A stretch of DNA of 36,943 nucleotides from Bacteroidota bacterium (GTDB lineage Bacteria; Bacteroidota; Bacteroidia; Cytophagales; Microscillaceae). Each line of letters begins with the position of its first letter. Position 1 is the first letter of the stretch. The translations under genes were made by a program, and so were the position numbers. Where the stretch lies: assembly GCA_004292795.1 (NCBI GenBank), contig RDXI01000041.1, positions 1 through 36,943 on the forward strand, in the 5' to 3' direction. The notes under the pieces were generated by a model. The model had not been told where the DNA came from. It was given only the letters and a program-made list of their open reading frames with translations, and made no database searches. Shown piece after piece: positions 101 through 36,943 of the stretch.

Positions 101-257
101 ATGCGACAAAGGGAGGGCAAACTAAAGACCTTGCCTACAAACTTGCCTACCATAAGCACCTACAGCACACAAATACGATTTTCCACAAAAAATTAGGCAA
201 CATGCTATTGTTTCACAATTTTTTATTGCAATTTTGGAAAAAAATTGAAAGTGCCTT

Positions 258-1109
258 ATGAAAAGTAAAATATGCCTTGTTACAGGAGCTAATTCGGGTA
301 TTGGCTATGTTACTACATTGGAGCTTGCCAAAAGAGGGGCGAGGGTGGGTATGGTGTGCCGTAGCGCAGAAAGAGGCGAGGAGGCAAGGCAAAATATCAT
401 TGCCCAAACACAGAATGACCGTATAGACCTTTTTATTTGCGATTTTGCGGTGCAAAGCCAAATACATACTTTAGCCCAAGAAATAAAGGCAAAATATGAA
501 CGCCTTGATGTGCTTGTAAATAACGCGGGACTGATAGGCAATGAGCGCGAACTTACGCCTGATGGCTTGGAGCTTACCTTCGCGGTTAATCATTTGGGGT
601 ATTTTATCTTGACAAATTTGTTGAAAGACTGTTTATTGAGAAGCCCTGAAGGGCGTATTGTGAATGTATCTTCCGAAATGCACCGTTTCACTAAGTTAGA
701 CTTTGATAATCTACAATCTGAAAAGAGCTATACAAGCATCAAAGCGTATGGCATTTCTAAACTGTGTAATATCTTGTTTACCAAAGAATTAGCCAAAAGA
801 TTGAAGGGTACAAATTTAGTTACGAACTGTTTGCACCCTGGAGCAGTGGCAACCAATTTTGCCAACAAAGCCAATGGCTTTCTAAAATTTTTGTTTAAAT
901 TCAGCAAACCTATTTTTCTTTCTCCCGAACAAGGAGCGAGAACGGTTGTGTATCTTGCTACTGAAGACGAAGCGGCGCAATATACTGGCGAATATTGGGA
1001 AAAAAATAAAATCAAAAAACCTTCTCTTGATGCGCTAAACGAAGCGTATGCAACCAAAATATGGGAAATTAGCACTGAACTTGCCTCCCTACAAGGGCAA
1101 ACATTTTGA
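258..1109 (+). CDS. Short-chain dehydrogenase/reductase, retinol-dehydrogenase-like
   Basis: A 283-residue classical SDR with a Rossmann fold that reduces or oxidises a carbonyl/alcohol with NAD(P). Visible motifs are the nucleotide-binding TGANSGIG at residues 9-16, NNAG at 88-91, an Asn in NHLGYF near 111, catalytic Ser near 138 and Tyr164-x3-Lys168 (YGISK). Arg/Ser after beta-2 (CRSAERG) suggests NADPH preference. The overall pattern, including the NHLG and LHPG motifs, is that of the RDH11-14-like group; the substrate cannot be inferred. The gene stands alone between the rRNA terminator and a lipoprotein gene. Family is certain, substrate unknown. Confidence 0.9.
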   Translation: MKSKICLVTGANSGIGYVTTLELAKRGARVGMVCRSAERGEEARQNIIAQTQNDRIDLFICDFAVQSQIHTLAQEIKAKYERLDVLVNNAGLIGNERELTPDGLELTFAVNHLGYFILTNLLKDCLLRSPEGRIVNVSSEMHRFTKLDFDNLQSEKSYTSIKAYGISKLCNILFTKELAKRLKGTNLVTNCLHPGAVATNFANKANGFLKFLFKFSKPIFLSPEQGARTVVYLATEDEAAQYTGEYWEKNKIKKPSLDALNEAYATKIWEISTELASLQGQTF

Positions 1110-1158
1110 AACATATTATTCTGTAAATCAATACCTTACCTACTCCATTATTCAAAAA

Positions 1159-2160
1159 ATGCGTAAATTCTCTACTCTTTTGTTGGGCTTGTTGTGTTTG
1201 AGCCTTGTGTTCGGTGCTTGCACGCGCAAAGCATTGGTCATCAATCAATTTTCTGATGATGATTGCCCCGTTTCAGACTCATCGAGCTATTATGACTCGT
1301 TGTTGGTTGCTTCTGTTCAGAAAATGAACATAGACACTACAAACTGTCAAGCCAAACTAACCAAACGCTTTTCGAAACGTGCCATTGCCATTGCTGAAAA
1401 TTTGGGGGTAAAAAGTTTGCTTTGTGAACTACAAAGATTAGAAGATAACAAGGCAAGTGAATTGGAGATTTTGAAAATCAAACAAGAACTACAAGGGCGC
1501 ATTACGGTAGGATTGGCTGATATAAACAGCAGTTTGTCGGAAATGGAGTGCCAAACAATACGCACCCGTGAACTCCAATTACACTTATCGGATTGGATAG
1601 ATACACGTCTGAACAGAGCCAATACGTATGCGATATTGTCGGGAGGCGTAAGTGCGATAATTGCAGGTTTGATAGCTACGAAGGTTATCAAAATCACTGA
1701 AGAAAATGATGCCGCCAACATCACAGAGCAAAGTATCGGCATGACAGGTGCAGTGATAGGGACTTACTATAGCTTTCGCGCTGTGGCTATTCATAGGAAA
1801 GTAGCGTTTAATCACCCACGCAATCACATTGCTTGTGTTTATGAAAACCAAAATAAAAATGGCTTATTCTCTCCTTTTTTGTGGAAGTTTATGACCAAAA
1901 CCTTTGTAAAAGACGGTAAGCCCACTACAGGCGTGCAAGAAATCTTGGAGAAATGGCATCAGTTAGGAATCCCGACTGAAAAAGAGGAAGAGGACTATCA
2001 AGAAAAAACCAAACTTTTCTCAAGCTTGGGAGGCGAGTATGAAGTAGATGACCTCGATAACCGTATTGAGATGTACGACATCTTGCGCGAAGAAATTTCG
2101 CTTATCAATTATGACCTCAAACGCCTTCAACAAGAAATTTTGATAGGCTATAAACAATAA
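1159..2160 (+). CDS. Predicted lipoprotein of unknown function
   Basis: A 333-residue protein whose start is placed at 1159 because the following residues form a lipoprotein signal peptide: Lys/Arg, a Leu-rich core and the lipobox VFGA-C with Cys21. An earlier in-frame Met at 1048 would overlap the upstream gene and bury the signal. After the signal there is a charged, probably coiled-coil segment with many Glu/Lys/Leu, two hydrophobic stretches around residues 190-245 (TYAILSGGVSAIIAGLIA and a Gly/Ala-rich one), then a charged C-terminal half. I do not recognise a family. It probably sits on the cell envelope. A large palindromic element follows immediately. Confidence 0.75.
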   Translation: MRKFSTLLLGLLCLSLVFGACTRKALVINQFSDDDCPVSDSSSYYDSLLVASVQKMNIDTTNCQAKLTKRFSKRAIAIAENLGVKSLLCELQRLEDNKASELEILKIKQELQGRITVGLADINSSLSEMECQTIRTRELQLHLSDWIDTRLNRANTYAILSGGVSAIIAGLIATKVIKITEENDAANITEQSIGMTGAVIGTYYSFRAVAIHRKVAFNHPRNHIACVYENQNKNGLFSPFLWKFMTKTFVKDGKPTTGVQEILEKWHQLGIPTEKEEEDYQEKTKLFSSLGGEYEVDDLDNRIEMYDILREEISLINYDLKRLQQEILIGYKQ

Positions 2161-2165
2161 AAAGA

Positions 2166-2353
2166 GAGTTAAGAGTTAAAAGTTATTGGTTCTTCTAAAA
2201 TTTATACAGAACATAACGTTTGGTGAGGACACCAAACGTGGAAAACGCTATGTTTGGTGTCTTCACCAAACAATTCACGCGGCTTTCCGTAAAAAATATA
2301 GAAGAACCTAGTTATTTATATAGCTTTAACTCCTAATTCATAACTCTTAACTC
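2166..2353. repeat. Nested palindromic (REP/MITE-like) intergenic element
   Basis: Three layers of inverted repeats lie in one spacer. The outer pair is GAGTTAAGAGTTA (2166-2178) with TAACTCTTAACTC (2341-2353). The middle pair is GGTTCTTCTA (2188-2197) with TAGAAGAACC (2299-2308). Inside are two tandem hairpins: ACGTTTGGTG (2216-2225) with CACCAAACGT (2230-2239), and TGTTTGGTG (2251-2259) with CACCAAACA (2264-2272), each with a 4-nt loop. The two hairpins share the core TTTGGTG. No protein is encoded. It could be a non-autonomous palindromic element or a processed intergenic RNA hairpin. Confidence 0.75.
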
Positions 2354-2366
2354 ATAACTCCCTTGT

Positions 2367-2949
2367 ATGCTTCACGTTGAAAATCTGACTATTCATTACC
2401 GCGAAAAACAGGTTTTGAACAATCTATCCTTCGAACTTCCTGCTCACAAACTTATTGGCATCATAGGGGCAAATGGTTCGGGCAAAACAACTTTGCTCAA
2501 AGGCGTGATGGGCTTGTTGCCCCTGACTACAGGCAAGGTGCAAATCTTAGGCGAGTCGCTTGCTTCGGTTCGAGATAGGCTAAGCGTGTTTGGAGCAAGT
2601 ACAGCTTACAGAGTTTTCAAAAAGGCAAATTTCAAAACTTTCTGGTGGGCAACAACAGCGCGTTTTTTTGGCGCGGGCTTTGGCGCGTCAAGCCGATTTG
2701 TACTTTCTTGATGAACCTTTTGCGGGGGTAGATATGGCTACCGAACAAACTATTATACGAATTTTGAAAGAAATGCGAGATGCAGGCAAGAGCATTGCTG
2801 TAGTGCATCACGACCTCAATACAGTTACCGATTATTTCGATAATGTGCTTTTGCTTACGCCTGAAGGCGTTTTGGTAGGCAAGACTGCCGAAGTATTCAC
2901 ACCCGAAAATCTACAAAAAGCCTTTGGAGGCAAGTTAGTAGGTTTTTGA
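2367..2949 (+). pseudogene. Broken Mn/Zn-type ABC transporter ATPase (internal deletion plus frameshift)
   Basis: The N-terminal part (2367 to about 2580) reads as an ABC ATPase with Walker A GANGSGKTT near residue 35 and ends at a VRDRL sequence. The C-terminal part is in another frame (about 2588-2949), with signature LSGGQQQR, Walker B LYFLDEP, D-loop and switch His (VVHHDL). The words QISKLSGGQQQRVFLARALA and FAGVDMATEQ are typical of ZnuC/MntB-type metal-import ATPases. Between the halves the Q-loop block normally containing YVPQR and the MGR segment is missing, roughly 45-50 codons, and the frame changes. A full protein cannot be made. No permease or binding-protein gene is adjacent. 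An assembly deletion is the alternative. Confidence 0.85.
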
Positions 2950-3065
2950 GTGAAATCGTTTTCGTATTAAAAATAAACCTTTTTAGTAAAAATAAAAAAC
3001 ATACAAGCAAACATTGTGTTATCATACCAATAAATAATAGGGCATTTTTTCATTTTTTATTGGTT

Positions 3066-3869
3066 ATGCGGGTACGCATTGTTTTCGCGCTGAAAAATAA
3101 GGGAGGCGCAGTCCCTTTTCATCATCAAATGCTCCTTTCGAGCTTCATTCAAACACAATTAGCAGGAAGTGAGCAAAAAGATTATACTTTTTACAACTTT
3201 TCGGGGTTGAAGGGGCAAACCAAAGTGAGTCGGGTTGGTTTACAATTTTATTCATCGAAAGTTACTTTAGTCGTATCGAGTTTGAGCAAGGCTTGGATTG
3301 ATACACTGATACGCACTATTTTCGCACAAACACAGGTCGAAATTGGCAATCTTTTGTTGATTCCTGAGCGCGTAGAGTTGGAAATGCCTCCTTCATTTGA
3401 GTTTCAGATGAAGTACGTTTGCATCTCGCCTATGGCGGTCATAGGGATAGACAACGACCATTATACTGCGAAAAAATTTATCTCGCCTGAAGATGATGCT
3501 TTTTCTGACCTTTTGTATGAAGTATTGATGAAACGTATGGAGCAAACAGGGCTTTATACGACAGAGCAGTTAGCAGAGTTTTACAAGTTTCAAGTCTTGC
3601 CTGACAAACAATATTTGCAAAAAATAAAAGCAGACGACAAAAAATTTGCGCGTATTTATACTATTCAACAAGGCAAAAACAAGCACGAATTTAGGGCTTA
3701 TACCTTGCCTTTTACGCTGTATGCTGATGCAACAGTGCAAAAGTTTTTGTTCGAATGTGGCATAGGCTATCACACCGAAGAAGGCTTTGGCATGATTGAT
3801 TATATACAAAGTGAAATGCCCAAAAATACGATTCCGTATGAATTGGAAGGAGTAATACAAAAAATGTAA
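3066..3869 (+). CDS. cas6: CRISPR-associated endoribonuclease Cas6 (stand-alone)
   Basis: Cas6 cuts CRISPR precursor RNA within the repeat. The 267-residue product has the family's N-terminus (basic/hydrophobic beta strand, then NKGGAVPFHHQMLL, residues 11-24, with candidate catalytic His19/His20). Near the C-terminus it has the RNA-binding glycine-rich loop GIG-x5-GFG at residues 232-242. Length fits the family (220-280). The start at 3066 is chosen because upstream residues in frame look non-coding and family members begin just before such a strand. No other cas gene and no repeat-spacer array occurs in the window. It converges on the next gene with only 3 bp between stops. No TAnnTTTG promoter was found upstream. 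Confidence 0.85.
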   Translation: MRVRIVFALKNKGGAVPFHHQMLLSSFIQTQLAGSEQKDYTFYNFSGLKGQTKVSRVGLQFYSSKVTLVVSSLSKAWIDTLIRTIFAQTQVEIGNLLLIPERVELEMPPSFEFQMKYVCISPMAVIGIDNDHYTAKKFISPEDDAFSDLLYEVLMKRMEQTGLYTTEQLAEFYKFQVLPDKQYLQKIKADDKKFARIYTIQQGKNKHEFRAYTLPFTLYADATVQKFLFECGIGYHTEEGFGMIDYIQSEMPKNTIPYELEGVIQKM

Positions 3870-3872
3870 GGT

Positions 3873-5069
3873 TTATAATTCTTCTACGATTTTATCAATA
3901 TCTAAATCGGGTTCTTCGTCTTCGCTTGCTTTTTTGCTTGGCGGAGGCGAATTTTCTTCTTCTTGTACGGCAGGAGCTTTTTCTGCTTTTTCAGGCTTGG
4001 GTTCTTCTTGTACTGCAGGCGAGCTAATAGGCGTTTCTTCGGCAGGGGCAGGCTCGAACACTACAGGCGAGAGGCGGAACACCAAATGTTGCAAGTTCGA
4101 AGTCTGAATCCAATAACGCCCCGTTCCGCTCAATAGCACAAATTGCGTTTGGTCTTCATAATTCATCGCATCTATAAGGCTTACCTGCTCGGTGTCAAGC
4201 GTAAGCGTACTTTCGTAGGCAAGGATAGAAAAAAGGTTAAGGCGAATAGCGTCATTTTCCATTTCTCGCCTGATGACTTGCCCCTCGCCACGCAAGAAAA
4301 TCATACCCTCGCCTGAAATTTTATCCAACTTAAAGAGCTTGCCTTGTGTGAAATTGACGCTAATGCCCGTATCCAAAAACTTCTCAAGCCTGATGCCTTT
4401 GCGGGCGCATAGGAAAGCCCCTGTTTGGAAAATAACCGCATTTTCTTGCAATTCGTCCAACACCACAGGCACGACCAAACCGCCATGCGTGGTCGTGAAG
4501 CCCACTTTGCGAATATACTCGCTTGGGTTGTGCAGGTAAGTCAGAAACCACGAAATTTCAGGCTCTTTTGGAGCAGGTGGTTCAGGTTCAGGCGCGGGTT
4601 TGGGCGGAGGCGGTTCTTCAAAAATGCCTCCAAACGATTTAGCAGGGGCAGGTTCTGGGGCTGGTTCGGGCTCTTCTTGTTTTTTCTTGCCTCCTGTGTC
4701 TTGTATTTTTTGCCCAATGTTCGCTATAGTCTTACGAGTTGCTTTCCAAAGTTTTTCGAGGAAAGTGCCATCTGTTTCGTCTTCCTCTTCTGGCGGGGGC
4801 GGGGTTTGTTTGGTAGGCAAGTTTACCACTTCGGGCATCAAATCTACTTCTTCCTCTTCCAAAATCTCCTCTATTTTTTGTTTGGCGGGTGGCTCAGGCT
4901 TAGGAGGCACAAAACCATCATTGGGGCGCGTTTCGTGGGTAATTTCTTCGTCCAAATACAACAACATACCGCCGTCAGCAATGAACGTCTTATCGGGTTC
5001 GATGCTGATTTCCAATATTTGGGCAGTAGTGCCTATGAGCTTAAAAACTATCGGTTCTTCAGTTTCCAT
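3873..5069 (-). CDS. AIM24/TIGR00266-like protein with Pro/Glu-rich insert
   Basis: 398 residues. The N-terminal ~45 residues (LEISIEPDKTFIADGGMLLY) and residues ~172-345 together match the beta-rich AIM24 (TIGR00266, formerly DUF124) fold: FLTYLHNPSEYIRKVGF, a late GEGMIFLRGEGQVIRREM strand pair and LSGTGRYWIQT. Between these parts is a low-complexity region (about 50-170) dominated by Pro and Glu, and the C-terminus (from ~345) is again Pro/Glu-rich and acidic. Family role is poorly known; no signal peptide is visible, so it is probably cytoplasmic. The start codon is 2 bp after the stop of the upstream TlpA-like gene, so they are co-transcribed. Confidence 0.75.
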   Translation of the reverse strand: METEEPIVFKLIGTTAQILEISIEPDKTFIADGGMLLYLDEEITHETRPNDGFVPPKPEPPAKQKIEEILEEEEVDLMPEVVNLPTKQTPPPPEEEDETDGTFLEKLWKATRKTIANIGQKIQDTGGKKKQEEPEPAPEPAPAKSFGGIFEEPPPPKPAPEPEPPAPKEPEISWFLTYLHNPSEYIRKVGFTTTHGGLVVPVVLDELQENAVIFQTGAFLCARKGIRLEKFLDTGISVNFTQGKLFKLDKISGEGMIFLRGEGQVIRREMENDAIRLNLFSILAYESTLTLDTEQVSLIDAMNYEDQTQFVLLSGTGRYWIQTSNLQHLVFRLSPVVFEPAPAEETPISSPAVQEEPKPEKAEKAPAVQEEENSPPPSKKASEDEEPDLDIDKIVEEL

Positions 5070-5071
5070 AT

Positions 5072-6259: not shown

Positions 6260-6272
6260 AAAAAATAGGGTG

Positions 6273-7178: not shown

Positions 7179-7198
7179 GCAAGAAGCGTAAAGGTGTG

Positions 7199-7206
7199 CA
7201 AAAATA
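7199..7206 (-). promoter_or_regulatory. Candidate -7 box (TATTTTTG) for the CPBP operon
   Basis: Read on the minus strand this is TATTTTTG, matching the Bacteroidota -7 consensus TAnnTTTG, 20 bp upstream of the CPBP start. No well-spaced TTG at -33 is visible, so confidence is moderate. Confidence 0.45.
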
Positions 7207-7223
7207 GCTATAGTTATGAAGGA

Positions 7224-7291
7224 TTATAGCTTTTTGTGAGAAAAAGGTATAATTTAAAGGGCTATAGCTTTTTGTGAGAAATAAGGTATCA
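7224..7291. repeat. Direct repeat, 38-bp period
   Basis: Two imperfect copies of TATAGCTTTTTGTGAGAAA followed by AAGGTAT start at about 7225 and 7263. Both lie upstream of the CPBP promoter. The copies are bounded by AGCTAT / ATAGCT words that are themselves palindromic. Possible regulator site pair or a decayed duplication. Confidence 0.6.
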
Positions 7292-7638: not shown

Positions 7639-7699
7639 CTGTAGCGTGGGCTTCAGCCTGCGCTTATCGTATATGCGCAGGCTAAAGCCTACGCTACAG
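7639..7699. repeat. Long perfect-loop hairpin overlapping the TPR gene stop
   Basis: Arms of 25 nt (7639-7663 and 7675-7699) pair with only two mismatches, both allowing G-U pairs in RNA; the loop is 11 nt. The arms contain GTAGCGT...GGCTT.AGCCTGCGC, a type of intergenic hairpin seen repeatedly in diverse bacterial genomes. The stop codon of the minus-strand TPR gene (7694-7696) is inside the right arm, so the transcript of that gene ends in this structure. There is no T-run; it is better called a REP-like palindrome than a classic terminator. Confidence 0.8.
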
Positions 7700-18426: not shown

Positions 18427-19359
18427 ATGCTAAACCCCGAAAAAATAGACCGCGTTTTGCCCGAAGACTTTCAAGACTTGCTTACACAAGAGGAATATGA
18501 ATTCATTTTGGACACTGCCCTTGCCTCCATTTCGAAGCATACTACCGTAGATTTGGTGAAAGAAGGCGAGATACACACGCTTGACCCTCAAAAAGAAGAT
18601 AGCAAAATGACTTTCAGCCTCCGCAATGTGGTGCGCAAGTGTAAGGCTGTGCCACGCGAAGAATGGGCGGAACTGATAGACAAATATTTAGGCAAGCCTT
18701 TGTTCAATGAGGCAAAACATATGTTTTTGATGAAGGATTTTGAGTATGCCGAGCCTTTGCTCAAGGTGGTGGTGCGCTCCAAGTTTGCCTTCGACCAAAC
18801 TGCCTTAGACAGGCTTACCTACCGCGAGGACATTCCACACACTTGTACTTTTTTGGTGCTGGATTATGATGATAGGTTTCACTATATAGACAAAACTTTG
18901 CTCAAAGATTGGGAAATGCCTTTGGAAACGCTGTTCGAGATAGGGCTTATCAATGTAGGCAAGGAAGATATTTCGGTAGAGCGCGTAGAAATGCAAGGTA
19001 TGGAGATTTTCGCGTTTTTCAGTGGTGATTTTTCTGCACCTTATATCGTGGAATTAGAAAAAAATGCCCCGCAAGCCGTAGGCGCGTTGGGCGCGGTAGT
19101 CAATATCCCTTCGAAAGGCAAGGCTTTAGTTCACCCGCTTGATGGCAATACTGCCTTGCAATACATAGCCAATATCTTGCAGTTGGTAGAGGTTTTTTTC
19201 TCACAAGACCCTGGTCCCATCAATGTACGCTCTTATTGGTATTATGAAGGCAAGTTCGAGGAATTTCCGATGTATAGCACCAACGACGGAAAACAAATGC
19301 TTACCTACCCTGACAAACTATTGGCGTTATTGACCAATGCTTCTGATGATGAGTTATGA
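18427..19359 (+). CDS. Conserved-looking cytoplasmic protein of unknown function
   Basis: 310 residues, no signal peptide and no membrane segment. It is mixed alpha/beta with segments such as VLPEDFQDLLTQEEYEFIL, HTCTFLVLDYDDRFHYID and IPSKGKALVHPLDG. The layout (an N-terminal helical part and a C-terminal part with repeated short beta strands) resembles immunity- or SUKH/DUF1444-like proteins only vaguely; I do not assign a family. The stop overlaps the start of the DCC gene (ATGA), so the two are co-translated. Start chosen next to a TATATTTG box. Confidence 0.8.
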   Translation: MLNPEKIDRVLPEDFQDLLTQEEYEFILDTALASISKHTTVDLVKEGEIHTLDPQKEDSKMTFSLRNVVRKCKAVPREEWAELIDKYLGKPLFNEAKHMFLMKDFEYAEPLLKVVVRSKFAFDQTALDRLTYREDIPHTCTFLVLDYDDRFHYIDKTLLKDWEMPLETLFEIGLINVGKEDISVERVEMQGMEIFAFFSGDFSAPYIVELEKNAPQAVGALGAVVNIPSKGKALVHPLDGNTALQYIANILQLVEVFFSQDPGPINVRSYWYYEGKFEEFPMYSTNDGKQMLTYPDKLLALLTNASDDEL

Positions 19360-23297: not shown

Positions 23298-25733
23298 CTA
23301 CCCCAACTCCACCGCAAACGCCCCATTCTTCAAATTCATTTCCAAATAAGGCAAATCCACCACTGTTTTGCTCAAGTCTTGTGCCTTTTCCCAAGGGTCA
23401 AAGTTCGAAATAGGCTCTACGAAGCGATAATTTTCGGTTTTCACTTTGGGCTTGAGTTCCTTCTTCTTGAAGCCATGCAGATAGATTTTCAAAGATGAGA
23501 ATTTTGAAGCATAGTTTCCTTCTACTTCCGAAATCTTGATTTTTTTCTTGCCTGCCTTGCTGACATGAAACGTAAAAACGCGCTTGTAGAAACTGCCGTT
23601 TTCGAAGTCGTAAGTCGCGCCATCATCTTCATAATACACAAAATCTTGACTCTCGTCCCCATTGTACACGTGCAGTTCGAGAACGCCATCAGTCTTTTCT
23701 TTCGTGTTCGCGGTGGCGTGTTGGGTAGGCAAGATTGCCCCTGCGCGTACAAAAACAGGCAGTTTATCGCTGGGCGTTTCGAGATAATGCGTTTTCTTGC
23801 CTGCATATCGCTTGTCGTTGTAGAAGTCGTACCACTCGCCTTCGGGTAGGTAAGCCTTGTGCAGAACCGTTCCGCCTCCTGCCACAGGCACGACTAACAA
23901 AAATTTGCCAAATTCATACTGAGTCGTATAATTGCCTTCATAAATCATTTCATCAAACGGATAACGGAAGGCAAGGCTTCTTTGCACAGGCAAGCCCGTT
24001 TGCGTGGCTTCGTAGAACGTGGCGTATAGGTAAGGCAGGAGTCTGTAGCGCAATTTGATGTAATTGCGGGCTATTTCTTCAGTTTCTTCGCCATAAGACC
24101 AAGGCTCGCTATCCTTGCTGTTTATCATCGTATGCCCACGAAAGAAGGGGGCAAAAGCACCAATGGCAATCCAACGTTTGAACAAATCGGCGGAAGCCTC
24201 GCCTACAAAACCGCCCACGTCATAGCCACAAAAAGCCAAACCACCTAAGCCCATATTGTTCAGAAGGCGAATATCGCCTAACATATTGTTCGCATCAGAG
24301 CAGTTGTCGCCTGTCCACACTGCCGCGTAGCGTTGCACACCCGAATAGCCTGCACGAGTCAAGACAAAAGGGCGTTTTCCATTCAGGCGAGCCTTTGTGC
24401 CTTCGAAGGTAGCACGCGCCATTTGCATACCATAAGCATTGTGCGCTTTTTTGTGTGTTACGTTTTCGCCTTCATAATCGAACAAAGTGATGTCAGGAAA
24501 ATGTTTGCCCCACACTGCAGGCTCGTTCATATCGTTCCAATAGCCCTCTACGCCTTGTGCTATGACTTCTTCGAACTGTTTGCCCCACCATTCCCGCGCC
24601 TTGCCTGCTGTGAAGTCGGGGAAATGACAACGACCAGGCCAAACTTCACCTATGTACGGCACATTGTCGGGGTATTTCACAAAAATATCTTCTTGCAAAC
24701 CACTTTCGTAGGCGTGATAGCCCTTTTCTACCTTTACGCCTGGGTCAAAAATCAAGACTACTTCGAAGCCCAACTCTTTTAGCTTGCCTATCAATTCGGT
24801 AGGGTTCGAAAAATGCTCTTTGTCCCACGTGAAAACCTTGTATTTTTCCATGTAGTGAATGTCAAAATACAGCACATCGGCAGGAATATCTTTTTCGCGG
24901 AAGGTTTCGGCAAGGCGCAACATTTCTTTGTCAGGATAATAGCTATAACGGCATTGTTGATAGCCCAAACTCCAAAGTGGAGGCATTTGTATCTTGCCTG
25001 TGAGCCACGTATAGGCTTCGAGTATGGCAGGCAAGGAATAGTTGTGTATGAAATAATAGCGCATTTCGCCATCTTGCGCTTGGAAGTAGCTGAAACGGTC
25101 GGTACTTGCGCCAAAATTGAAATTGGATTTGTGCGTGTTGTCAAAGAAAATGCCATACATACCTTCGTTTTTAGGCAAGATGCCCACATAAAACGGATAA
25201 GAGCCATAGAGCGGGTCTGTGTCGTTGCCGTAGGCAAAAGCATCGACATTCCAATTCGTGTAGGTATTGCCACGCCTGTCGAGTCCGCCTGTTTTTTCGC
25301 CTAAGCCTATGAAGCGTTCTTGGGGCTGTAGGGTTTTGTAGTTCGTAACTTCCGTTCCCTGCCACGTGATTCCAAAACTTGGGTGGTCTTCGTTCAGCAA
25401 AAGATGTTCGTTAAAATGTTCGTCTTCTTGCTGTTGGGCATAGTAGGCAAGGCGCAAAGGAGCTTTTTGGACTTTGAGGCGTATTTTTTCGGTTATAACA
25501 AGGTCGTAATGTTCATAACTTTCTATTTCATACAAATTTTCAGGAGCTAAGGGGCTTGCCTGCACGCCATAAGAGTGCGTTTCAAAGCCTTCGTCATCAT
25601 AGAGCATTGCCCGCACTTCGATAACGTCTTGCCTGAAGACGCGGATTTGCAAACTGCCTTCTGCGGTGCGGTAGAGTATGCCATTTGGCACTGTTTCGGT
25701 GTGGAGAACGTTGGAGAGGGTTATTATTTTCAT
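23298..25733 (-). CDS. GH31 alpha-glucosidase
   Basis: 811 residues. An N-terminal beta-sandwich (to ~245) with GLGEKTGGLDRRG precedes the (beta/alpha)8 barrel. The catalytic nucleophile is Asp401 in WNDMNEP, and the acid/base Asp476 in TGDN. FRGHT near 555 and the PYLYATFYEATQTG block are family-typical; beta-rich C-terminal domains follow (from ~620). It hydrolyses terminal alpha-glucosidic bonds; no signal peptide, so cytoplasmic. Its last ~12 codons are duplicated at 22586-22621 beyond the toxin-antitoxin pair. The gene has its own TAAATTTG promoter box. Confidence 0.95.
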   Translation of the reverse strand: MKIITLSNVLHTETVPNGILYRTAEGSLQIRVFRQDVIEVRAMLYDDEGFETHSYGVQASPLAPENLYEIESYEHYDLVITEKIRLKVQKAPLRLAYYAQQQEDEHFNEHLLLNEDHPSFGITWQGTEVTNYKTLQPQERFIGLGEKTGGLDRRGNTYTNWNVDAFAYGNDTDPLYGSYPFYVGILPKNEGMYGIFFDNTHKSNFNFGASTDRFSYFQAQDGEMRYYFIHNYSLPAILEAYTWLTGKIQMPPLWSLGYQQCRYSYYPDKEMLRLAETFREKDIPADVLYFDIHYMEKYKVFTWDKEHFSNPTELIGKLKELGFEVVLIFDPGVKVEKGYHAYESGLQEDIFVKYPDNVPYIGEVWPGRCHFPDFTAGKAREWWGKQFEEVIAQGVEGYWNDMNEPAVWGKHFPDITLFDYEGENVTHKKAHNAYGMQMARATFEGTKARLNGKRPFVLTRAGYSGVQRYAAVWTGDNCSDANNMLGDIRLLNNMGLGGLAFCGYDVGGFVGEASADLFKRWIAIGAFAPFFRGHTMINSKDSEPWSYGEETEEIARNYIKLRYRLLPYLYATFYEATQTGLPVQRSLAFRYPFDEMIYEGNYTTQYEFGKFLLVVPVAGGGTVLHKAYLPEGEWYDFYNDKRYAGKKTHYLETPSDKLPVFVRAGAILPTQHATANTKEKTDGVLELHVYNGDESQDFVYYEDDGATYDFENGSFYKRVFTFHVSKAGKKKIKISEVEGNYASKFSSLKIYLHGFKKKELKPKVKTENYRFVEPISNFDPWEKAQDLSKTVVDLPYLEMNLKNGAFAVELG
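23304..23339. repeat. 36-bp direct repeat, inner copy (within the GH31 gene)
   Basis: Identical to 22586-22621, 718 bp away. The DUF433/DUF5615 pair lies between the two copies, in the manner of an insert flanked by attachment sites or of a tandem duplication. Confidence 0.9.
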
Positions 25734-26033
25734 AATGGGCTGAAAGGTAGAAGGGTTGAGGGGTGGAAGGGTGATTGAGAGAGTTCAAATTTAGGAAAGG
25801 TTTTGCAATTTTGTTTTATTCTTGCCTATTGTGCATAAAAAAATAAAGGCTTGCTTACTTTTCGCGAGGTAGCATTATTTTGGATTTTGCTGTTAAAAAT
25901 AGCAGATAGCGTGTTTTTTAGCATTTATTTCACAAAGATTTGCATTTGTGGGAACTGTTTTGCAACTTTGCAGGCGAGAGGCTTGCCTACGCACTCTTTC
26001 GCTCTCTCACTCATTCGCTCATTCACCTTGTTT
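25734..26033. other. Divergent promoter region between GH31 gene and parC
   Basis: No gene is evident. On the minus side it has a -7 box TAAATTTG (25793-25786) for the glucosidase and a pyrimidine-rich leader with CCCTTCCACCCCTCAACCC-type repeats. On the plus side the parC leader ends in CTCTTTCGCTCTCTCACTC- and CATTCGCTCATTCACC-type simple repeats just before the ATG. The plus-strand frame stays open from 25851 but those residues look non-coding. Confidence 0.5.
25786..25793 (-). promoter_or_regulatory. Candidate -7 box (TAAATTTG) for the GH31 gene
   Basis: Minus-strand TAAATTTG fits the consensus, about 52 bp upstream of the start at 25733. No well-spaced TTG. Confidence 0.4.
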
Positions 26034-28064
26034 ATGAAAGAAAAAGACCACCTATCGAATATCCAAGAAGTCTATGATGATTGGTTTTTGGATTATGCCT
26101 CGTATGTAATCCTTGAACGTGCTGTACCTCACCTGAACGATGGACTGAAGCCCGTTCAGAGGCGTATCTTGCACGCTATGAAGCAAATGGAAGATGGACG
26201 CTACCACAAAGTAGCCAACGTTATTGGGCAAGCTATGCAGTATCACCCACATGGCGATGCCTCTATTGGGGACGCGCTTGTGGGTATGGGGCAAAAGGAT
26301 TTGCTGATAGATATGCAGGGCAACTGGGGCGACATTCGAACAGGCGATGGCGCGGCGGCTTCGCGTTATATAGAATCTCGCCTAACCAAATTCGCCCTCG
26401 AAGTGGTCTTCAATCCGCAAACTACCGAATGGCAAAAATCGTATGATGGGCGCAAGAAAGAACCCGTAACACTTCCTGTAAAATTCCCTCTCCTGCTCGC
26501 ACAAGGCACAGAAGGCATTGCGGTAGGCTTGGCTACGAAAATTATGCCTCACAATTTCATTGAATTGGTCGAGGCTTCTATAGCTATTTTGAAAGGGCAA
26601 CCGTTTACGCTCTTGCCCGACTTTCCTACGGGAGGCATTGCGGACTGCTCGCTCTACAAGGCAGGCGCGAAGGGAGGCAAGATTAGGGTACGCGCTACGA
26701 TAGAAATACACGCCAAAAACAAACGCGAGCTTATCATCAAAGACGTGCCGTATGGCGTTACTACGCCCTCGTTGATAGAGTCTATCATCAAAGCCAATGA
26801 CGCAGGCAAGATAAAAATCAAAAAAGTGGTAGATAACACCGCCAAAGAAGTAGAAGTATTGGTCGAGCTTGCGGTGGGCATCGAGCCAGAACAAACCATT
26901 GACGCACTTTATGCCTTTACGGATTGCGAAGTGAGCATCTCGCCTAATACGTGTGTGATTGTGGAAAACAAACCGCGATTCTTGGACGTGCATGAGTTGT
27001 TGCGCATTTCTACGACCAATACAGTAGAACTATTGCGTCAAGAGCTTGAGATTAAAAAACACGAATTGCAAGAAAAGTTGCTTTATAGTTCTTTGGAGAA
27101 GATTTTTATCGAAAACCGCATTTACCGCAAAATTGAAGAATGTACGACTTGGGAGAGCGTATTGGAAACTATAGACACAGGGCTACAACCGTACAAACAC
27201 GAGTTTTATCGTGACATAACCCGCGAGGACATCTTGCGCCTGACTGAAATAAAAATCAAACGTATCTCGAAATATGATGCCTTCCAAGCTGACGAAATAG
27301 CCAAAGGCTGGCAGAAGGAACTCGAGGAAACCTTAGACCACCTCGAAAACTTGACGCGCTATGCTATCAATTATTTCAAAAATTTATTGAAAAAATACAG
27401 CAAAGACCGAGAACGCAAAACAAAACTTACTACCTTTGATACTATAGTAGCCACTGAAGTAGCTATTAACAACCAAAAACTGTATGTCAATCGTGCAGAT
27501 GGTTTTATAGGCTATGGCTTGAAAAAGGACGAATATGTGTCGGATTGTTCGGATATTGACGATATTTTGGTCTTTACCAAAGATGGCAAGTATTACATCA
27601 AGAAGGTAGGCGAGAAAGTGTATGTAGGCAAGGACATTGTGCATATAGCCGTGTATGGCAAAGATGCGAAAGAAGCCGTTTTCAATGTGGCGTACCGCGA
27701 TGGCGAAACAGGCAACACAATGGTCAAGCGTTTTCAGATTGGAGGCGTTATCCGCGACAAAGAATATGACGTTACGAAGGGCGCGAAAAACTCGCAACTG
27801 CTTTACATTAGCCAAAATGATGCAGGCGAGACCGAAAGCCTGACCGTAAAACTCTCGGCAAACTGCACCGCCAAAATCAAGACTTTCGAATACAATTTCG
27901 CAGACCTTGAGATAAAAGGCAAGACTGCAGGAGGCAATATCCTAACGCGCTATCCTATCCGCAAGATTGAGAAAAAAGCCGATAAAACCTCGCCTACCCC
28001 GCCCAAAGTGGTAGATGTAGTCGATAAAACTTTGTTCCAAAATGGTTCAGGAAAGCATAGCTAA
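26034..28064 (+). CDS. parC: Type IIA topoisomerase subunit A (ParC/GyrA2 type)
   Basis: 676 residues from the chosen start at 26034, where the conserved N-terminus begins (YDDWFLDYASYVILERAVP). The winged-helix breakage domain has HPHGDASIGDAL and GDGAAASRYIE with catalytic Tyr112; the tower region and a coiled-coil gate follow. The C-terminal wrapping domain is present only in part (GFIGYGLKKDEYVSDCSDID, YPIRKIEKK), ending at residue 676. Bacteroidota ParC proteins, as I recall them, are often 100-200 residues longer at this end. It works with ParE, not in the window, to unlink daughter chromosomes. A terminator made of the dispersed word follows within 14 bp. Confidence 0.92.
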   Translation: MKEKDHLSNIQEVYDDWFLDYASYVILERAVPHLNDGLKPVQRRILHAMKQMEDGRYHKVANVIGQAMQYHPHGDASIGDALVGMGQKDLLIDMQGNWGDIRTGDGAAASRYIESRLTKFALEVVFNPQTTEWQKSYDGRKKEPVTLPVKFPLLLAQGTEGIAVGLATKIMPHNFIELVEASIAILKGQPFTLLPDFPTGGIADCSLYKAGAKGGKIRVRATIEIHAKNKRELIIKDVPYGVTTPSLIESIIKANDAGKIKIKKVVDNTAKEVEVLVELAVGIEPEQTIDALYAFTDCEVSISPNTCVIVENKPRFLDVHELLRISTTNTVELLRQELEIKKHELQEKLLYSSLEKIFIENRIYRKIEECTTWESVLETIDTGLQPYKHEFYRDITREDILRLTEIKIKRISKYDAFQADEIAKGWQKELEETLDHLENLTRYAINYFKNLLKKYSKDRERKTKLTTFDTIVATEVAINNQKLYVNRADGFIGYGLKKDEYVSDCSDIDDILVFTKDGKYYIKKVGEKVYVGKDIVHIAVYGKDAKEAVFNVAYRDGETGNTMVKRFQIGGVIRDKEYDVTKGAKNSQLLYISQNDAGETESLTVKLSANCTAKIKTFEYNFADLEIKGKTAGGNILTRYPIRKIEKKADKTSPTPPKVVDVVDKTLFQNGSGKHS

Positions 28065-28151: not shown

Positions 28152-28182
28152 CACCCACTTAGCCCAAAAAACGTTCTTTGAT

Positions 28183-29934: not shown

Positions 29935-30003
29935 GTTTTTGTAGCAATGTCAAATAATGGAGTTATTTTTGTAAAATAGAAATCGGATACCCTCGCCTAC
30001 GTT

Positions 30004-31947: not shown

Positions 31948-31984
31948 GGGATTGCTCCAAATATTTTTAAATTAATTGAAAGGA

Positions 31985-33073: not shown

Positions 33074-33074
33074 T

Positions 33075-33105
33075 TTGGCAAATCATACGCTTTGTGTTAC
33101 CTTTG
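33075..33105 (+). promoter_or_regulatory. Bacteroidota promoter, leaderless dehydratase gene
   Basis: TTG (33075-33077), 20-bp spacer, TACCTTTG (33098-33105): a full match to consensus. The ATG at 33110 is 4 bp after the box, where transcription should begin, so the mRNA should be leaderless. Confidence 0.7.
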
Positions 33106-33109
33106 CGCT

Positions 33110-33340
33110 ATGTGGCAAGAAACAGATAATCAGCTCAAACGAACTTTCGAGTTCAAGGATTTTATAGAAGCATTCGCTTTTATGACGCAAGTCGCGCTTG
33201 TAGCCGAAAAAATGAATCATCACCCTGCTTGGTTCAATGTCTATAATCGGGTGGAAATATCACTCACGACACATGATGCAGGCAACACTATTACCGAAAA
33301 AGACCGCGCTTTGGCAAAAGCCATTGATGCCTTGTTGTAG
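33110..33340 (+). CDS. phhB: 4a-hydroxytetrahydrobiopterin (pterin-4a-carbinolamine) dehydratase
   Basis: 76 residues. The family signature is complete: [20 protein letters not shown] with His37-His38-Pro39, later His55 and an Asp in ITEKD. The enzyme dehydrates the carbinolamine formed by aromatic amino-acid hydroxylases and so recycles tetrahydropterin. The product is a little shorter at the N-terminus than many homologues; the start at 33110 is set by the promoter, which ends 4 bp before it. An upstream TTG start in frame would add only six residues across the promoter. Likely in one unit with the SDR gene 18 bp downstream. Confidence 0.9.
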
Positions 33341-33358
33341 CCGTATACTATTTTTTGT

Positions 33359-34048
33359 ATGAATTTACTCATCACAGGGGCAGGCAAGGGCATAGGCTAC
33401 GCGGCTACCGAATACGCCTTGCGAGCAGGGCATAACGTGATAGCTATTTCGCGCCAAATACAAGCCCTCGAAGCCTTGCAAGCGCAATATCCTACAACGT
33501 TACAGGTATTTTCGATAGATATAGCCCAAGCCGAAGCACTCACAAGTCTTTTGCCTTGCCTACAGCAGGCAGGCAAGTTAGACGCGCTTATTCACAATGC
33601 GGGTGTATTGATAAACAAGCCTTTCCTCGACCTTACAGATGAAGATTGGGCGCAATCGTGGAATGTGAATGTGATGGCTACCGTAAGGCTGACTCGCCTG
33701 TGTTTGCCCTTCATGGGCGTGGTAGGCAAGGCGCATATCGTTCATGTAGGCAGTATGGGCGGTTTTCAAGGCAGTACGAAGTTTGAAGGTTTGGCTTCTT
33801 ACAGCACGTCGAAGGGAGCTTTAGCGACTTTAACGGAATGTTTGGCGGTGGAACTTGCAGAAAAAAATATCCATGTAAATTGCCTTTGTTTGGGGGCGGT
33901 AAATACCCAAATGTTGCAACAAGTCTTTCCTGTTTATGACGCGCCCATGAGTTCGGAACAAATGGGCAAATATTTGATTCAATTTGCTACTGAACACACG
34001 CCTTTCTACAACGGAAAAGTTTTGCCTGTAGCAGTCAGTGTGCCGTAA
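33359..34048 (+). CDS. Short-chain dehydrogenase/reductase
   Basis: 229 residues, a classical SDR. Motifs: TGAGKGIG at 6-13, NAG at 81-83, Ser133 (VHVGSMGG) and the catalytic Tyr149-x3-Lys153 (YSTSK). It may be NADPH-linked from the Arg after beta-2 (ISRQ). Substrate unknown; its place directly after the pterin dehydratase (18 bp) hints at a pteridine or aromatic link but that is inference. lpxB follows 19 bp later with its own promoter box. The gene holds several copies of the dispersed word. Confidence 0.9.
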   Translation: MNLLITGAGKGIGYAATEYALRAGHNVIAISRQIQALEALQAQYPTTLQVFSIDIAQAEALTSLLPCLQQAGKLDALIHNAGVLINKPFLDLTDEDWAQSWNVNVMATVRLTRLCLPFMGVVGKAHIVHVGSMGGFQGSTKFEGLASYSTSKGALATLTECLAVELAEKNIHVNCLCLGAVNTQMLQQVFPVYDAPMSSEQMGKYLIQFATEHTPFYNGKVLPVAVSVP

Positions 34049-34054
34049 AATTTG

Positions 34055-34062
34055 TACTTTTG
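34055..34062 (+). promoter_or_regulatory. Candidate -7 box (TACTTTTG) for lpxB
   Basis: TACTTTTG fits the consensus and ends 5 bp before the lpxB ATG at 34068. The lpxB message would be leaderless or have a very short leader. A -33 TTG with good spacing is lacking. Confidence 0.5.
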
Positions 34063-34067
34063 CGCTT

Positions 34068-35198
34068 ATGAAATATTACCTCATTGCGGGCGAACGCTCT
34101 GGCGATATGCACGCAGGAAACCTCATGCGGGCTATTTTGCAAAACGACACGCAAGCCGAATTTCGCTACTTTGGAGGCGAGGCTATGCAAGCCGTAGGCG
34201 GAACGCTTGTGAAGCACTACCGCGAAATGGCGTTCATGGGCGTGTGGGAAGTGTTGATGAATTTGCGCACCATCTCGCGCTTGTTGAAGGAATGTAGGCA
34301 AGATGTGGAAGCGTGGCAACCTGACGCGATTATTTTGGTGGACTATAGCGGTTTCAATTTGCGCATTGCCCAATACATCAAAGACCAAAACTTGCCTATC
34401 AAAACCATTTTTTACATCTCGCCGAAAGTGTGGGCATATCGCCAAAAACGAGCCTTGCGCATCAAACGCTTGATAGATTGTATGTTGGTTATCTTTCCTT
34501 TTGAGGTAGATTTTTACCAAAAATTTGACTATAAAGTGCATTATGTTGGCAATCCTTTGCTTGACTCGGTAGCGCAATTCACACCCAATCCAAGTTTTAA
34601 GGCTGAAAATCATTTGAGCAACTTGCCTACTATCGCGCTATTGCCCGGAAGTAGGAAGCAAGAACTTGTGAAAATCTTGCCTACTATGCTCGAAGCTACG
34701 CTTCTTTTCCCAAAAGACGAAAAACAACAATACCAATTTGTAGTGGCGGGTGTTAGCAATGTGGACAAGAGTTTATATGATATTTGCCAAAAATACCCTC
34801 ACGTCAAAATTGTATGGGACAGTAGCTATGACCTGTTGCAAGTGGCGCAAGGGGCTATCGTAACTTCGGGTACGGCTACGTTGGAAACGGCTCTTTTTCG
34901 CGTCCCTCAAGTAGTAGTGTATCGCACAAGTTGGCTTACCTACGAAGTCGTGAAGCGCATTATCAAAGTGCCTTACATCTCATTGGTCAATCTCATTGCG
35001 CAAAAAGAAGTCGTGAAAGAATTGATACAACAAGATTTTCAAGCACAAAAAATATACGAAGAATTGCGAAAAGTCTTGCCTGTGGTAGGCGAGTTGCATT
35101 ATCAAACCCTTGCCAAATATGATGAACTAAGAGCCTTGATGGGCGAAGCAGGAGCTTCTACTCATTCAGCAGAGGTGATTAAAAACTTTTTAGCTTGA
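34068..35198 (+). CDS. lpxB: Lipid-A-disaccharide synthase
   Basis: 376 residues, family length. Start at 34068 gives the conserved N-terminus KYYLIAGERSGDMHAGNLM. Further words are FRYFGGEAMQAVGG, HYREMAFMGVWEVL, DYSGFNLRIA, YISPKVWAY, YVGNPLLDS and IALLPGSRKQE; the SGTATLETAL loop binds the UDP donor. It joins UDP-2,3-diacylglucosamine to lipid X to form the lipid A disaccharide at the inner face of the inner membrane, which indicates a Gram-negative envelope. Confidence 0.96.
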   Translation: MKYYLIAGERSGDMHAGNLMRAILQNDTQAEFRYFGGEAMQAVGGTLVKHYREMAFMGVWEVLMNLRTISRLLKECRQDVEAWQPDAIILVDYSGFNLRIAQYIKDQNLPIKTIFYISPKVWAYRQKRALRIKRLIDCMLVIFPFEVDFYQKFDYKVHYVGNPLLDSVAQFTPNPSFKAENHLSNLPTIALLPGSRKQELVKILPTMLEATLLFPKDEKQQYQFVVAGVSNVDKSLYDICQKYPHVKIVWDSSYDLLQVAQGAIVTSGTATLETALFRVPQVVVYRTSWLTYEVVKRIIKVPYISLVNLIAQKEVVKELIQQDFQAQKIYEELRKVLPVVGELHYQTLAKYDELRALMGEAGASTHSAEVIKNFLA

Positions 35199-35208
35199 TT
35201 TTATTGAA

Positions 35209-35280
35209 AGTTAAAAGTTGAAAGTTGATTTATTAATTTACTCACTCATTTACTCATTCACTCCCTCACCCATTCACTCC
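35209..35280 (+). repeat. Simple-repeat, pyrimidine-rich leader
   Basis: The spacer before the DUF1569 gene is nearly all low-complexity: AGTTAAAAGTTGAAAGTTG, then CTCACTCATTTACTCATTC and CACTCCCTCACCCATTCACT units of about 7-8 nt, right up to the ATG. Similar leaders precede other genes here. Confidence 0.6.
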
Positions 35281-35281
35281 C

Positions 35282-35758
35282 ATGCTCAACGTACAAGATT
35301 GTAAACACTTTTTGCAGGACGTGATTCCTGTAGCTCTCGAAAAATTGCAAGCCGATACAAAACCCGCTTGGGGCAGTATGGAGGCGCAAGAAATGCTCGA
35401 ACACGTGGCAATGGCTCTCAAAGGGGGCTATGCTTTAGAGTTTGGGGCAGACAAAGAACCCAAACCCGCCCAAACGCAAGCAAAAATTGCTTTTTTGGAG
35501 CAAAACACACCCTATCCGAAAGGCATACCCAGCCCCTTTCACAAAGAAGGCAAGCCTGCGTATGTGTTCGCTTCGCTTGATGATGCCAAGAAAAATTTAG
35601 TGGAACAAGTGCAGGCTATGTATGCGTTTTTTGAAAAACCCGAAAACCTTGCGAAGTTCTTTTTCCACCCATTTTTTGGAAAATTGAATTTTGACGAAGT
35701 GCAGAAGTTCAATTACAAACATATCGCACACCATTTCGAGCAGTTCGACTTGTTGTAA
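35282..35758 (+). CDS. DUF1569/DinB-like protein
   Basis: 158 residues. The sequence AWGSMEAQEMLEHVAMAL near residue 30, then HPFFGKLNFDEVQKFNYKHIAHHFEQFDLL at the C-terminus (given in part: KHIAHHFEQF) match the DinB-like four-helix family DUF1569, in which the His residues bind a metal. The thiol or transferase function is not known. The N-terminal start follows a simple-repeat leader. An inverted pair of the dispersed word sits between its stop and the convergent tyrS stop. Confidence 0.8.
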   Translation: MLNVQDCKHFLQDVIPVALEKLQADTKPAWGSMEAQEMLEHVAMALKGGYALEFGADKEPKPAQTQAKIAFLEQNTPYPKGIPSPFHKEGKPAYVFASLDDAKKNLVEQVQAMYAFFEKPENLAKFFFHPFFGKLNFDEVQKFNYKHIAHHFEQFDLL

Positions 35759-35769
35759 TGCTGTAAGCA

Positions 35770-35797
35770 AGTAGGCGAGCCAAAAGACTCGCCTACT
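35770..35797. terminator. Inverted-pair hairpin between convergent genes
   Basis: AGTAGGCGAG (35770-35779) pairs perfectly with CTCGCCTACT (35788-35797), loop of 8 nt. The arms are the AGGCGAG variant of the dispersed word. It begins 12 bp after the DUF1569 stop and ends one base before the tyrS stop. T-runs are weak, so efficiency is uncertain. Confidence 0.7.
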
Positions 35798-35798
35798 G

Positions 35799-36943
35799 TT
35801 AGTTTATAATCGCCAAGTAATATTTTTTGCCATTTTGCAAAAGCACATATTTGTCTTTCAATTTGGTAAAATTAGGCTTTTCGTTGCCTTGCGCTTCGTT
35901 GATTTTGGTTTTGTTGATGCTGATGCCATTGCCTTTGATGGCTCGCCTGATATCGCCTTTGGAGGTTTGCATCACTTCTGCCAATAAGTCCACACTGTTC
36001 GCAAAACCTTCGTATTCGTCAGCCGTGAAGTTGCGTTGAGGCACGCCTTCGAACACTTCGCGCAAAACAGCCAAATCTGTATTTTCAAAATCGTCGAGGG
36101 TAGATTTGCCAAACAATAATTGCGAGGCGCGTTGCGCATCTTCGAGGGCATCTTGCGAGTGTACTCGCCTTGTGATGTCTTCCGCCAAAATGCGCTTCAG
36201 TGCGTTGGGATTGGTGGCATTTTCGGCTTCGAAGCCTTCTATTTCTTCTTTGGAATACAGCGTGAAGAAGCGAAGCAGGCGAGGCAAATCGGCATCATTC
36301 ACATTGAGCCAAAACTGATAGAACGCATACGGGGAGGTAAGTTCAGGCGAGAGCCACACATTGCCACTTTCCGACTTGCCAAATTTTTGTCCATCGGCTT
36401 TGGTCAGCAGGGGGCAGGTAAGGGCAAAAGCCTCGCCTCCATCTTTGCGCCTGATAAGCTCTGTGCCTGTGGTAATGTTGCCCCATTGGTCAGAACCGCC
36501 CATTTGCAAACGGCAATTTTTCTCTTTGTATAAATGGTAGAAGTCGTAGCCTTGCAAAAGTTGGTAAGAAAATTCGGTAAAAGAAATGCCTGTTTCGAGG
36601 CGGTTTTTTACGGAGTCTTTCGACATCATGTAGTTTACCGTTAGAAACTTGCCTACCTCGCGCAAGAAGCCCAAGAAATTAAAATCCTTCATCCAATCGT
36701 AGTTATTCACTACTTGCGCCGCGTTCTCGCCTGTGAAGTCCAAAAATTTCTCTAATTGGTTTCTTACGCCTGCCACGTTGGTTTCGAGCTGTTCCATTGT
36801 CAAAAGATTGCGTTCTTTCGACTTGCCTGACGGGTCGCCAATCATACCCGTTGCGCCTCCTACGAGGGCAATGGGCTTGTGTCCTGCTCGCTGAAAATGC
36901 ACGAGCAACATAATAGGCACAAGGTTTCCAATATGCAAAGAGG
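35799..36943 (-). CDS. tyrS: Tyrosyl-tRNA synthetase, N-terminus cut off
   Basis: The window shows about 381 residues, ending at the edge just before the HIGH-like motif (SLHIGNLVPIM). It charges tRNA-Tyr with tyrosine. Visible motifs are LVGGATGMIGDPSGKS, GYDFYHLYK, QMGGSDQWGNI and the KMSKS-like loop KFGKSESGN. The C-terminus carries an S4-like RNA-binding domain (about the last 70 residues: DIRRAIKGNGISINKTKI). The upstream ~45 codons are outside. It converges on the DUF1569 gene. Confidence 0.95.
   Translation of the reverse strand, partial: SLHIGNLVPIMLLVHFQRAGHKPIALVGGATGMIGDPSGKSKERNLLTMEQLETNVAGVRNQLEKFLDFTGENAAQVVNNYDWMKDFNFLGFLREVGKFLTVNYMMSKDSVKNRLETGISFTEFSYQLLQGYDFYHLYKEKNCRLQMGGSDQWGNITTGTELIRRKDGGEAFALTCPLLTKADGQKFGKSESGNVWLSPELTSPYAFYQFWLNVNDADLPRLLRFFTLYSKEEIEGFEAENATNPNALKRILAEDITRRVHSQDALEDAQRASQLLFGKSTLDDFENTDLAVLREVFEGVPQRNFTADEYEGFANSVDLLAEVMQTSKGDIRRAIKGNGISINKTKINEAQGNEKPNFTKLKDKYVLLQNGKKYYLAIIN

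Follow-up and report, generated by a model that had tools for sequence, protein, structure and literature searches.

Contig RDXI01000041.1 of the Bacteroidota assembly GCA_004292795.1 (hereafter the window, i.e., the whole stretch of 36,943 nucleotides that was analyzed) raises the question of why a short asymmetric word, AGGCRAG, is repeated along its entire length, on both strands and within unrelated genes. The window is contig C53 of the source assembly, here termed G000, which comprises 4,561,086 bases in 430 contigs and is 82% complete. The genus (g1) holds one other genome, G129, which represents a sister species and is 96% complete.

Abundance of the word in the window and across the genome

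In the window, AGGCAAG was found 61 times on the forward and 62 times on the reverse strand, and AGGCGAG 21 and 29 times by strand, which bears out the counts of the original prediction (about 120 copies, 60:61, and about 50, respectively). The span given there, 130-36817, holds at its start, while the final copy ends at 36828. The extended form GNAGGCRAG was present 114 times (55 on the forward and 59 on the reverse strand). Across G000, AGGCAAG was counted 12,514 times (6309 + 6205), corresponding to one copy per 364 bp, and the background control, which was the same word read backwards, 149 times (71 + 78). The GYAGGCAAG form was counted 7145 times (3574 + 3571), and its reversed control was not found on either strand (0 + 0). 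The word is asymmetric and its two orientations are equal in number genome-wide. The whole-genome count, which the original prediction had put forward as decisive, is thus far over expectation, and the genome-wide over-representation of the word is confirmed as real.

A detail sample of 21 stretches of G000, totaling 194,942 bases and including the window, contained 821 AGGCRAG copies, one per 237 bp or 4.2 per kb. In these stretches AGGCAAG was observed 590 times versus 60.5 expected under an order-2 Markov model (39.8 when the words were masked first), and AGGCGAG 231 times versus 25.0 (17.4 when masked). Even under an unmasked order-3 model, which already contains most of the word, AGGCAAG reached 467 copies versus 100 in the 20 stretches other than the window. 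In the sampled G000 DNA, AGGCRAG was missing from none of 92 intervals of 2 kb (variance/mean 1.73), and the gaps between copies averaged 231 bp with a standard deviation of 274. Spacing was near random, with a modest surplus of short and very long gaps; those of 13-20 bp numbered 43 versus 22.6 expected.

Origin of the excess at the DNA level

The contribution of codon use was assessed by 300 synonymous shuffles of 32 coding sequences of the window, chosen by the analyst. The 106 AGGCAAG copies in these genes fell to 11.2 ± 3.1 after shuffling (maximum 21 in the 300 shuffles) and the 44 AGGCGAG copies to 5.1. Outside the 32 genes, 23 words were found versus 24.6 expected by the share of DNA, so that word density was equal inside and outside genes, and the sense and antisense orientations within them were exactly balanced (75:75). 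The AGGCAAG copies occupied several frames, namely nnA-GGC-AAG (x-Gly-Lys, 36), nnC-TTG-CCT (x-Leu-Pro, 36), and CTT-GCC-Tnn (Leu-Ala, 20), and the frame that forces Cys was rare (2 of 106). The earlier claims that the copies lie in several reading frames of unrelated genes and that the excess arises at the DNA level were both upheld by these results.

The proteome, too, seems to be shaped by the word. Gly-Lys occurred at 1.59 and 1.64 times expectation and Leu-Pro at 1.56 and 1.88 times in the two genomes of the genus, versus about 1.1 for both dipeptides in most of 12 relatives; exceptions in small samples were Gly-Lys in G102 and G141 (1.55-1.58) and Leu-Pro in G102 (1.61) and G075 (1.56). 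Such enriched dipeptides could in principle carry the word along without any function, as a side effect of biases in mutation, codon use or amino-acid use. This explanation is very improbable and already largely refuted, given that synonymous shuffling keeps only about 11 of the 106 copies, that non-genic words occur at the expected frequency and antisense copies are as common as sense ones, and that most one-base neighbors of the word are near expectation, unlike what simple base bias would produce. Codon and dinucleotide bias were ruled out as causes by synonymous shuffling together with the masked Markov models.

Distribution among relatives and dialects of the word

Three samples of genomes were surveyed: 15 from the family (G000, G129 and 13 others), 390 from the order, including G000 and G129, and 395 from the phylum, in which G000 was included and G129 was not drawn. 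Within the order, G000 and G129 stood out with 12,514 and 10,883 (5399 + 5484) AGGCAAG copies, and comparable abundance was not seen in the 388 other genomes; the highest of these, G039, reached about 360 per Mb at most versus 2744 in G000 and about 2015 in G129. Among the first 20 contigs of G129, six consist only of N, which lowers both the apparent GC content of this G129 sample (0.363 versus 0.411 without N) and its word density. GYAGGCAAG was counted 8458 times in G129 and 20-396 times in the 13 other family genomes, and its excess was absent in the 394 other Bacteroidota genomes of the phylum sample, the next highest count being 154 (G422). Similarly, among 80 named loci of relatives, found with the topoisomerase IV gene of the window, the densest held 0.36 AGGCAAG per kb versus 3.33 in the window. 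The reversed word is a poor yardstick elsewhere in Bacteroidota, where ratios of up to about 12 arise from ordinary composition, since AGGCAAG did not exceed 1.74 times the order-3 model in 12 sampled family genomes (G170 left out). Among the genomes sampled, the word was limited to a single genus.

The two species of this genus carry two dialects of one core, GY-AGGCRAG in G000 and GGY-AGGCAAG-K in G129. In G000 the core is AGGC[A/G]AG, preceded directly by C or T in 79% of copies, and G lies two bases upstream in 72% of the A form and 59% of the G form. The form GNAGGCRAG proposed earlier was right in its core, and wrong in making the upstream G invariant. In G129 AGGCGAG was much weaker (28 versus 9-11 expected) and AGGCAGG was enriched (53 versus 10.7-16.2), whereas in G000 AGGTAAG reached 4-5 times expectation, and AGGCCAG and AGGCTAG were nearly absent from the stretches (one and zero copies). 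Variants at the first three positions showed little or no enrichment (about 1.5 times at most), most one-base neighbors of the word were close to expectation, and all one-off variants together were in moderate excess (818 versus 628 in G000, 400 versus 331 in G129). No conserved flank extended past about 10-11 bases. With so little enrichment of variants at positions one to three, the pattern is more suggestive of a binding protein that tolerates certain changes than of a word blurred by decay.

Conservation of the word between the two species

The comparison of copies with orthologous sites, proposed in the original prediction, revealed conservation above background. The window and G129 could be aligned over 13,049 window bases in 14 blocks holding 64 words, of which 29-30 were also words in G129, the difference being one gap-adjacent site. 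Letter-identical copies amounted to 28 of 64 versus 11.8 ± 3.0 for random positions matched by gene and codon phase, and none of 20,000 draws was as high. GY-extended sites were kept in 17 of 27 cases and other sites in 13 of 37. Species-specific words differed mostly by base substitutions, with ungapped alignment at the site.

These alignments bear on whether the word was spread by the copying of an element, such as a transposon footprint or a mobile repeat. The thousands of copies and the excess of short gaps (13-20 bp) would suit such a process, which is nevertheless scarcely credible, as the species-specific words differ mostly by substitutions without gaps at the site and the conservation of flanks ends at about 10-11 bases. 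Neither mobile footprints nor terminator pairs gained support, given the ungapped substitutions in the one case and the lack of any preference in pair orientation in the other.

Word-bearing phage-like contigs

The viral collection was assembled by scans for gapped word pairs, with one locus (L382) added from a protein scan, giving at least 376 loci; selection by word pairs favors word-rich contigs, so that the collection shows that such phages exist, and not their frequency. After de-clustering, at least three contigs held 19-25 separate word-bearing bins of 150 bases, about 5-8 times the order-2 model. These were L254 (IMGVR_UViG_3300037882_004544), L283/L382 (IMGVR_UViG_3300046328_001292), and L645 (IMGVR_UViG_3300046328_001329), with a GC content of 0.40-0.42, as in the host. 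L254 carried 30 words in 11.1 kb (28 in genes; 4.3 after synonymous shuffling), L382 27 words in 15.5 kb (25 in genes; 5.3 after shuffling), and L645 32 words in 8.2 kb (all 32 in genes; 3.5 after shuffling), i.e., genic words about 5-9 fold over the shuffles. Their densities (2.7, 1.7, and 3.9 per kb, respectively) corresponded to 41-92% of the 4.2 per kb of the G000 stretches.

All three encode a terminase plus other head, tail, portal or lysis proteins. L645 also bears an integrase and L254 a Rha/anti-repressor-like regulator, and no sign of a temperate or other lifestyle was seen in L283/L382. The L254 terminase had 38 other relatives, among which the most words found were 10, in 11.5 kb; in a search of the 15 family genomes its nearest relative was in G153 (54% identical), and none was present in G000 or G129. 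A query with the L283 terminase matched nothing in the viral set apart from its own contig. As the word itself suggests, the hosts of these contigs are probably members of the genus. In Pasteurellaceae, temperate phages accumulate the uptake signal sequence (USS), and likely lytic ones of more than 150 kb do not, as described in PMC6776037.

Other contigs that came close to these three in rate were set aside as short, clustered or GC-rich (e.g., L567 with 10 bins, L612 with 6, L204 with 16 bins at a GC content of 0.60), as were loci whose high word content was due solely to clusters or tandem copies (L567, L622, L195, and L169 among others). In the viral contigs L169 and L195 the word stands in tight arrays with periods of 27 and 12 bases, unlike the genome-wide pattern.

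The presence of the word in both host and phage-like DNA would also be expected of a Chi-like or protective signal, which would stop a host nuclease or steer recombination to the benefit of both, and the strand lean of L254 (20:10) and L382 (19:8) points the same way. This explanation is quite improbable: the host strands are balanced in the window and across G000, as are the gene senses, L645 shows 15:17, and we know of no Chi as dense as one site per 213 bp, the mean gap in the window. The earlier argument against skewed sites of the Chi or FtsK orienting polar sequence (KOPS) type still holds, skew having been sought in one contig and genome-wide and found in neither.

A candidate self-recognition word for DNA uptake

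Uptake words are best known from two proteobacterial families, Pasteurellaceae and Neisseriaceae, both of which use type IV pili. In this genus, G-Y-AGGC-R-AG may mark DNA as self for uptake, a reading to which we give an even chance. It draws on how abundant the word is, its origin at the DNA level, the balance of its strands, the conservation of its sites, the two dialects, the copies in phage-like contigs, and single parts of a ComEC/ComEA-type inner machinery in the two genomes. According to this model, a surface DNA receptor would prefer word-bearing DNA, the DNA taken up would recombine into the chromosome, and this preference would over time raise the word count wherever proteins tolerate it, resident temperate phages included. 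Drift of the receptor preference from species to species would then account for the two dialects. The parallel to DNA-uptake sequences (DUS) drawn in the original prediction is strengthened by the dialects of the two species, the conservation of sites, and accumulation in three phage-like contigs.

Like the DUS of Neisseriaceae, the genus word is short and asymmetric, has thousands of copies and dialects in related species, and lies within genes. The density range is also similar, DUS being reported at one per 400-1100 bp (PMC7371117), with 5918 copies of kingDUS in 2.4 Mb (PMC3630211), and AGGCAAG at one per 364 bp. It differs from DUS in sequence and phylum, in being denser, in that no ComP pilin was found, and in having no surplus of inverted pairs. 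With the USS of Pasteurellaceae it shares a 9-base core, occurrence on both strands, and two dialects, and the phage-like contigs, if their host is this genus, would parallel the temperate phages that accumulate the USS. It departs from the USS in sequence and phylum, with no pilin found and no extended flank seen. H. influenzae accessory genes are described as poorer in USS than core genes (PMC6776037); here, the ten methyltransferase loci examined in G000 held 68 words in 25.9 kb, 2.6 per kb versus the mean of 4.2 (about 60%, without a matched control). Methyltransferase loci being an accessory-type class, their lower word content is what a slow accumulation of words would lead to. In G129, an unmasked stretch of 3.1 kb without AGGCAAG (L023:10001-13105, contig C3) overlaps a DNA methyltransferase match and is possibly a recent arrival.

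Within Bacteroidota, Riemerella anatipestifer transforms via ComEC, DprA, ComF, RecA and four functionally uncharacterized proteins, including one with a helix-hairpin-helix (HHH) domain, and its authors consider a possible new machinery, though one of the proteins is predicted in the fimbrium (PMC8459023). R. columbina favors its own DNA, a type IV pilus-type system was thought possible in F. johnsoniae, and the frequent k-mers that Table 3 of the same report lists for Riemerella are A/T-rich runs, with no comparable word among them (PMC7965970). The genus is like Riemerella in phylum, in its single finds of ComEC (G129) and of a ComEA-like HHH protein (G000) and, on the uptake model, in own-DNA preference, and unlike it in its word.

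ComEC was found in 14 of the 15 family genomes, G129 included, HHH_3 matches in all 15, and a ComEA-like protein of 310-390 residues in 13; the one in G000, with ComEA repeats, lies at L001:4568-5500. Several results weigh against an uptake word. The pilin N-terminal motif PF07963 was detected in none of the 15 family genomes and in 8 of 14 controls. In G000 (82% complete) no ComEC was detected, and the HHH_3 matches of G129 (96% complete) did not include the ComEA-like protein, nor did those of G153, outside the genus, so that the two inner parts were seen together in neither genome of the genus. Since these parts are family-wide and the word is confined to the genus, they do not explain the word. 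No genus-specific receptor was found, inverted pairs, described as frequent for DUS (PMC7371117), showed no excess among 800 neighbor pairs (199 convergent, 195 divergent, 406 in the same direction), and every one of the ten G000 methyltransferase loci is still dense, with 5-9 words each. In a comparison of the G129 ComEC neighborhood with four relatives, ComEC alone was matched and no receptor candidate emerged.

If the negative pilin search is right, the receptor could not be a minor pilin of the classical type IV kind (ComP), and uptake would need to proceed without the known pilus genes, as the Riemerella transposon screen suggests. Because a pilin receptor was searched for and not found, the word is not filed as a member of the USS/DUS class, although it would work like one. 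We give slightly less than an even chance to an independently evolved Bacteroidota uptake word without known pilus genes, with a sequence-specific surface receptor and a density about as high as or above the highest DUS density in the reports cited here; otherwise, the word could be a new host-phage DNA signal. No uptake or iterated word for Cytophagales, nor any of AGGCAAG sequence, was found in the open-licence papers searched, which leaves the earlier remark that no Bacteroidota equivalent is described uncontradicted there. If the uptake reading is true, self-recognition by a DNA word evolves repeatedly, and the genus points to a new sequence-specific DNA receptor and offers a natural test of the drive model. 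Moreover, the word may label phages of an uncultured host.

Methyltransferases and the comparison with HIP1

A further explanation is that the word is an iterated site resembling the cyanobacterial highly iterated palindrome HIP1, which a resident DNA methyltransferase or chromosome-organizing protein binds or methylates and which is kept for DNA maintenance. HIP1 and alternate HIPs accompany cognate methyltransferases (PMC4390886), and HIP1 is likewise genome-wide, lineage-wide, and found within coding sequence. G000 and G129 each had 16 N6/N4 methyltransferase matches, five of the ten G000 loci had a 75-87% identical counterpart among ten G129 loci, and phages would also be expected to carry the word if it protected DNA. 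HIPs are palindromic, whereas AGGCRAG and its flanks are asymmetric, which makes HIP1 the poorer fit and the weaker of the two parallels drawn in the original prediction; other family genomes have 2-28 methyltransferase matches and yet lack the word; the shared enzyme L449 has a convergent neighbor of 203 residues, as in a restriction pair, although this neighbor matched no NCBIfam model; and the specificity of a methyltransferase is not readable from sequence. From the ten loci compared in each of the two genomes, no genus-specific methyltransferase could be named. A HIP1-like role is therefore unlikely and fits less well than an uptake word, though the abundant methyltransferases may be readers of the word. 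The search for cognate machinery called for earlier yielded single ComEC/ComEA-like parts and many methyltransferases, none of them tied to the word.

Features of the window and other repeated elements

Table 1. Positions in the window of the word, of copies shared with the sister species, and of the gene used for placement
Feature	Position	Strand	Remarks
AGGCRAG, 173 copies (123 AGGCAAG, 50 AGGCGAG)	130..36828	both	mean gap 213 bp, across whole window
Word kept at orthologous place, ATGTAGGCAAGGAA in both G000 and G129	18957..18963	+	window versus G129 alignment
Nine words in GH31 glycosidase gene, same places in G129	23547..25634		DNA 84% identical
Topoisomerase IV subunit A-like gene	25851..28064	+	used for placing organism and family
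Four words in short-chain dehydrogenase gene, common to G129	33382..33730		gene only 68% identical
Four words in lpxB gene, common to G129	34622..35093		window versus G129 alignment

The closest of the 80 named loci found with the topoisomerase IV gene shared about 60-72% protein identity and were mostly Cytophagales strains or metagenome-assembled genomes (such as Marinoscillum, Reichenbachiella, Aquirufa); some of the closest were labeled Chitinophagaceae or Saprospiraceae, and the lower ones were largely Pedobacter. Cytophagales is accordingly the most probable order of the organism.

Another genus of the family, represented by G141, carries its own iterated palindrome, TGATWATCA, with 6128 sites in 6.8 Mb (reversed control 16) versus 52-396 in the 14 other family genomes. 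It is part of a longer palindrome of roughly 25 bases, about TAAnTAnYTGATWATCARnTAnTTA, and is mostly intergenic: long open frames took up 76% of a 40-kb sample and contained 8 of 36 sites (loci L052-L054, L310, L447, L652, and L656). Because it is mostly located between genes and is about 25 bases long, it represents a different kind of element.

Additionally, window positions 25737-25779 and 35195-35234 each have several further matches elsewhere in G129 (86-94%) and are perhaps an interspersed repeat of both species, distinct from AGGCRAG. A Cas6-like protein is encoded at 2946-3869; a Pfam scan of 30 window frames turned up no further cas family. Finally, in both G000:C82 and G129:C734 a single long open frame (1159 and 1162 residues, respectively) contains the gyrA-like matches in separate parts, the arrangement that an intein or an insertion in gyrA would produce.

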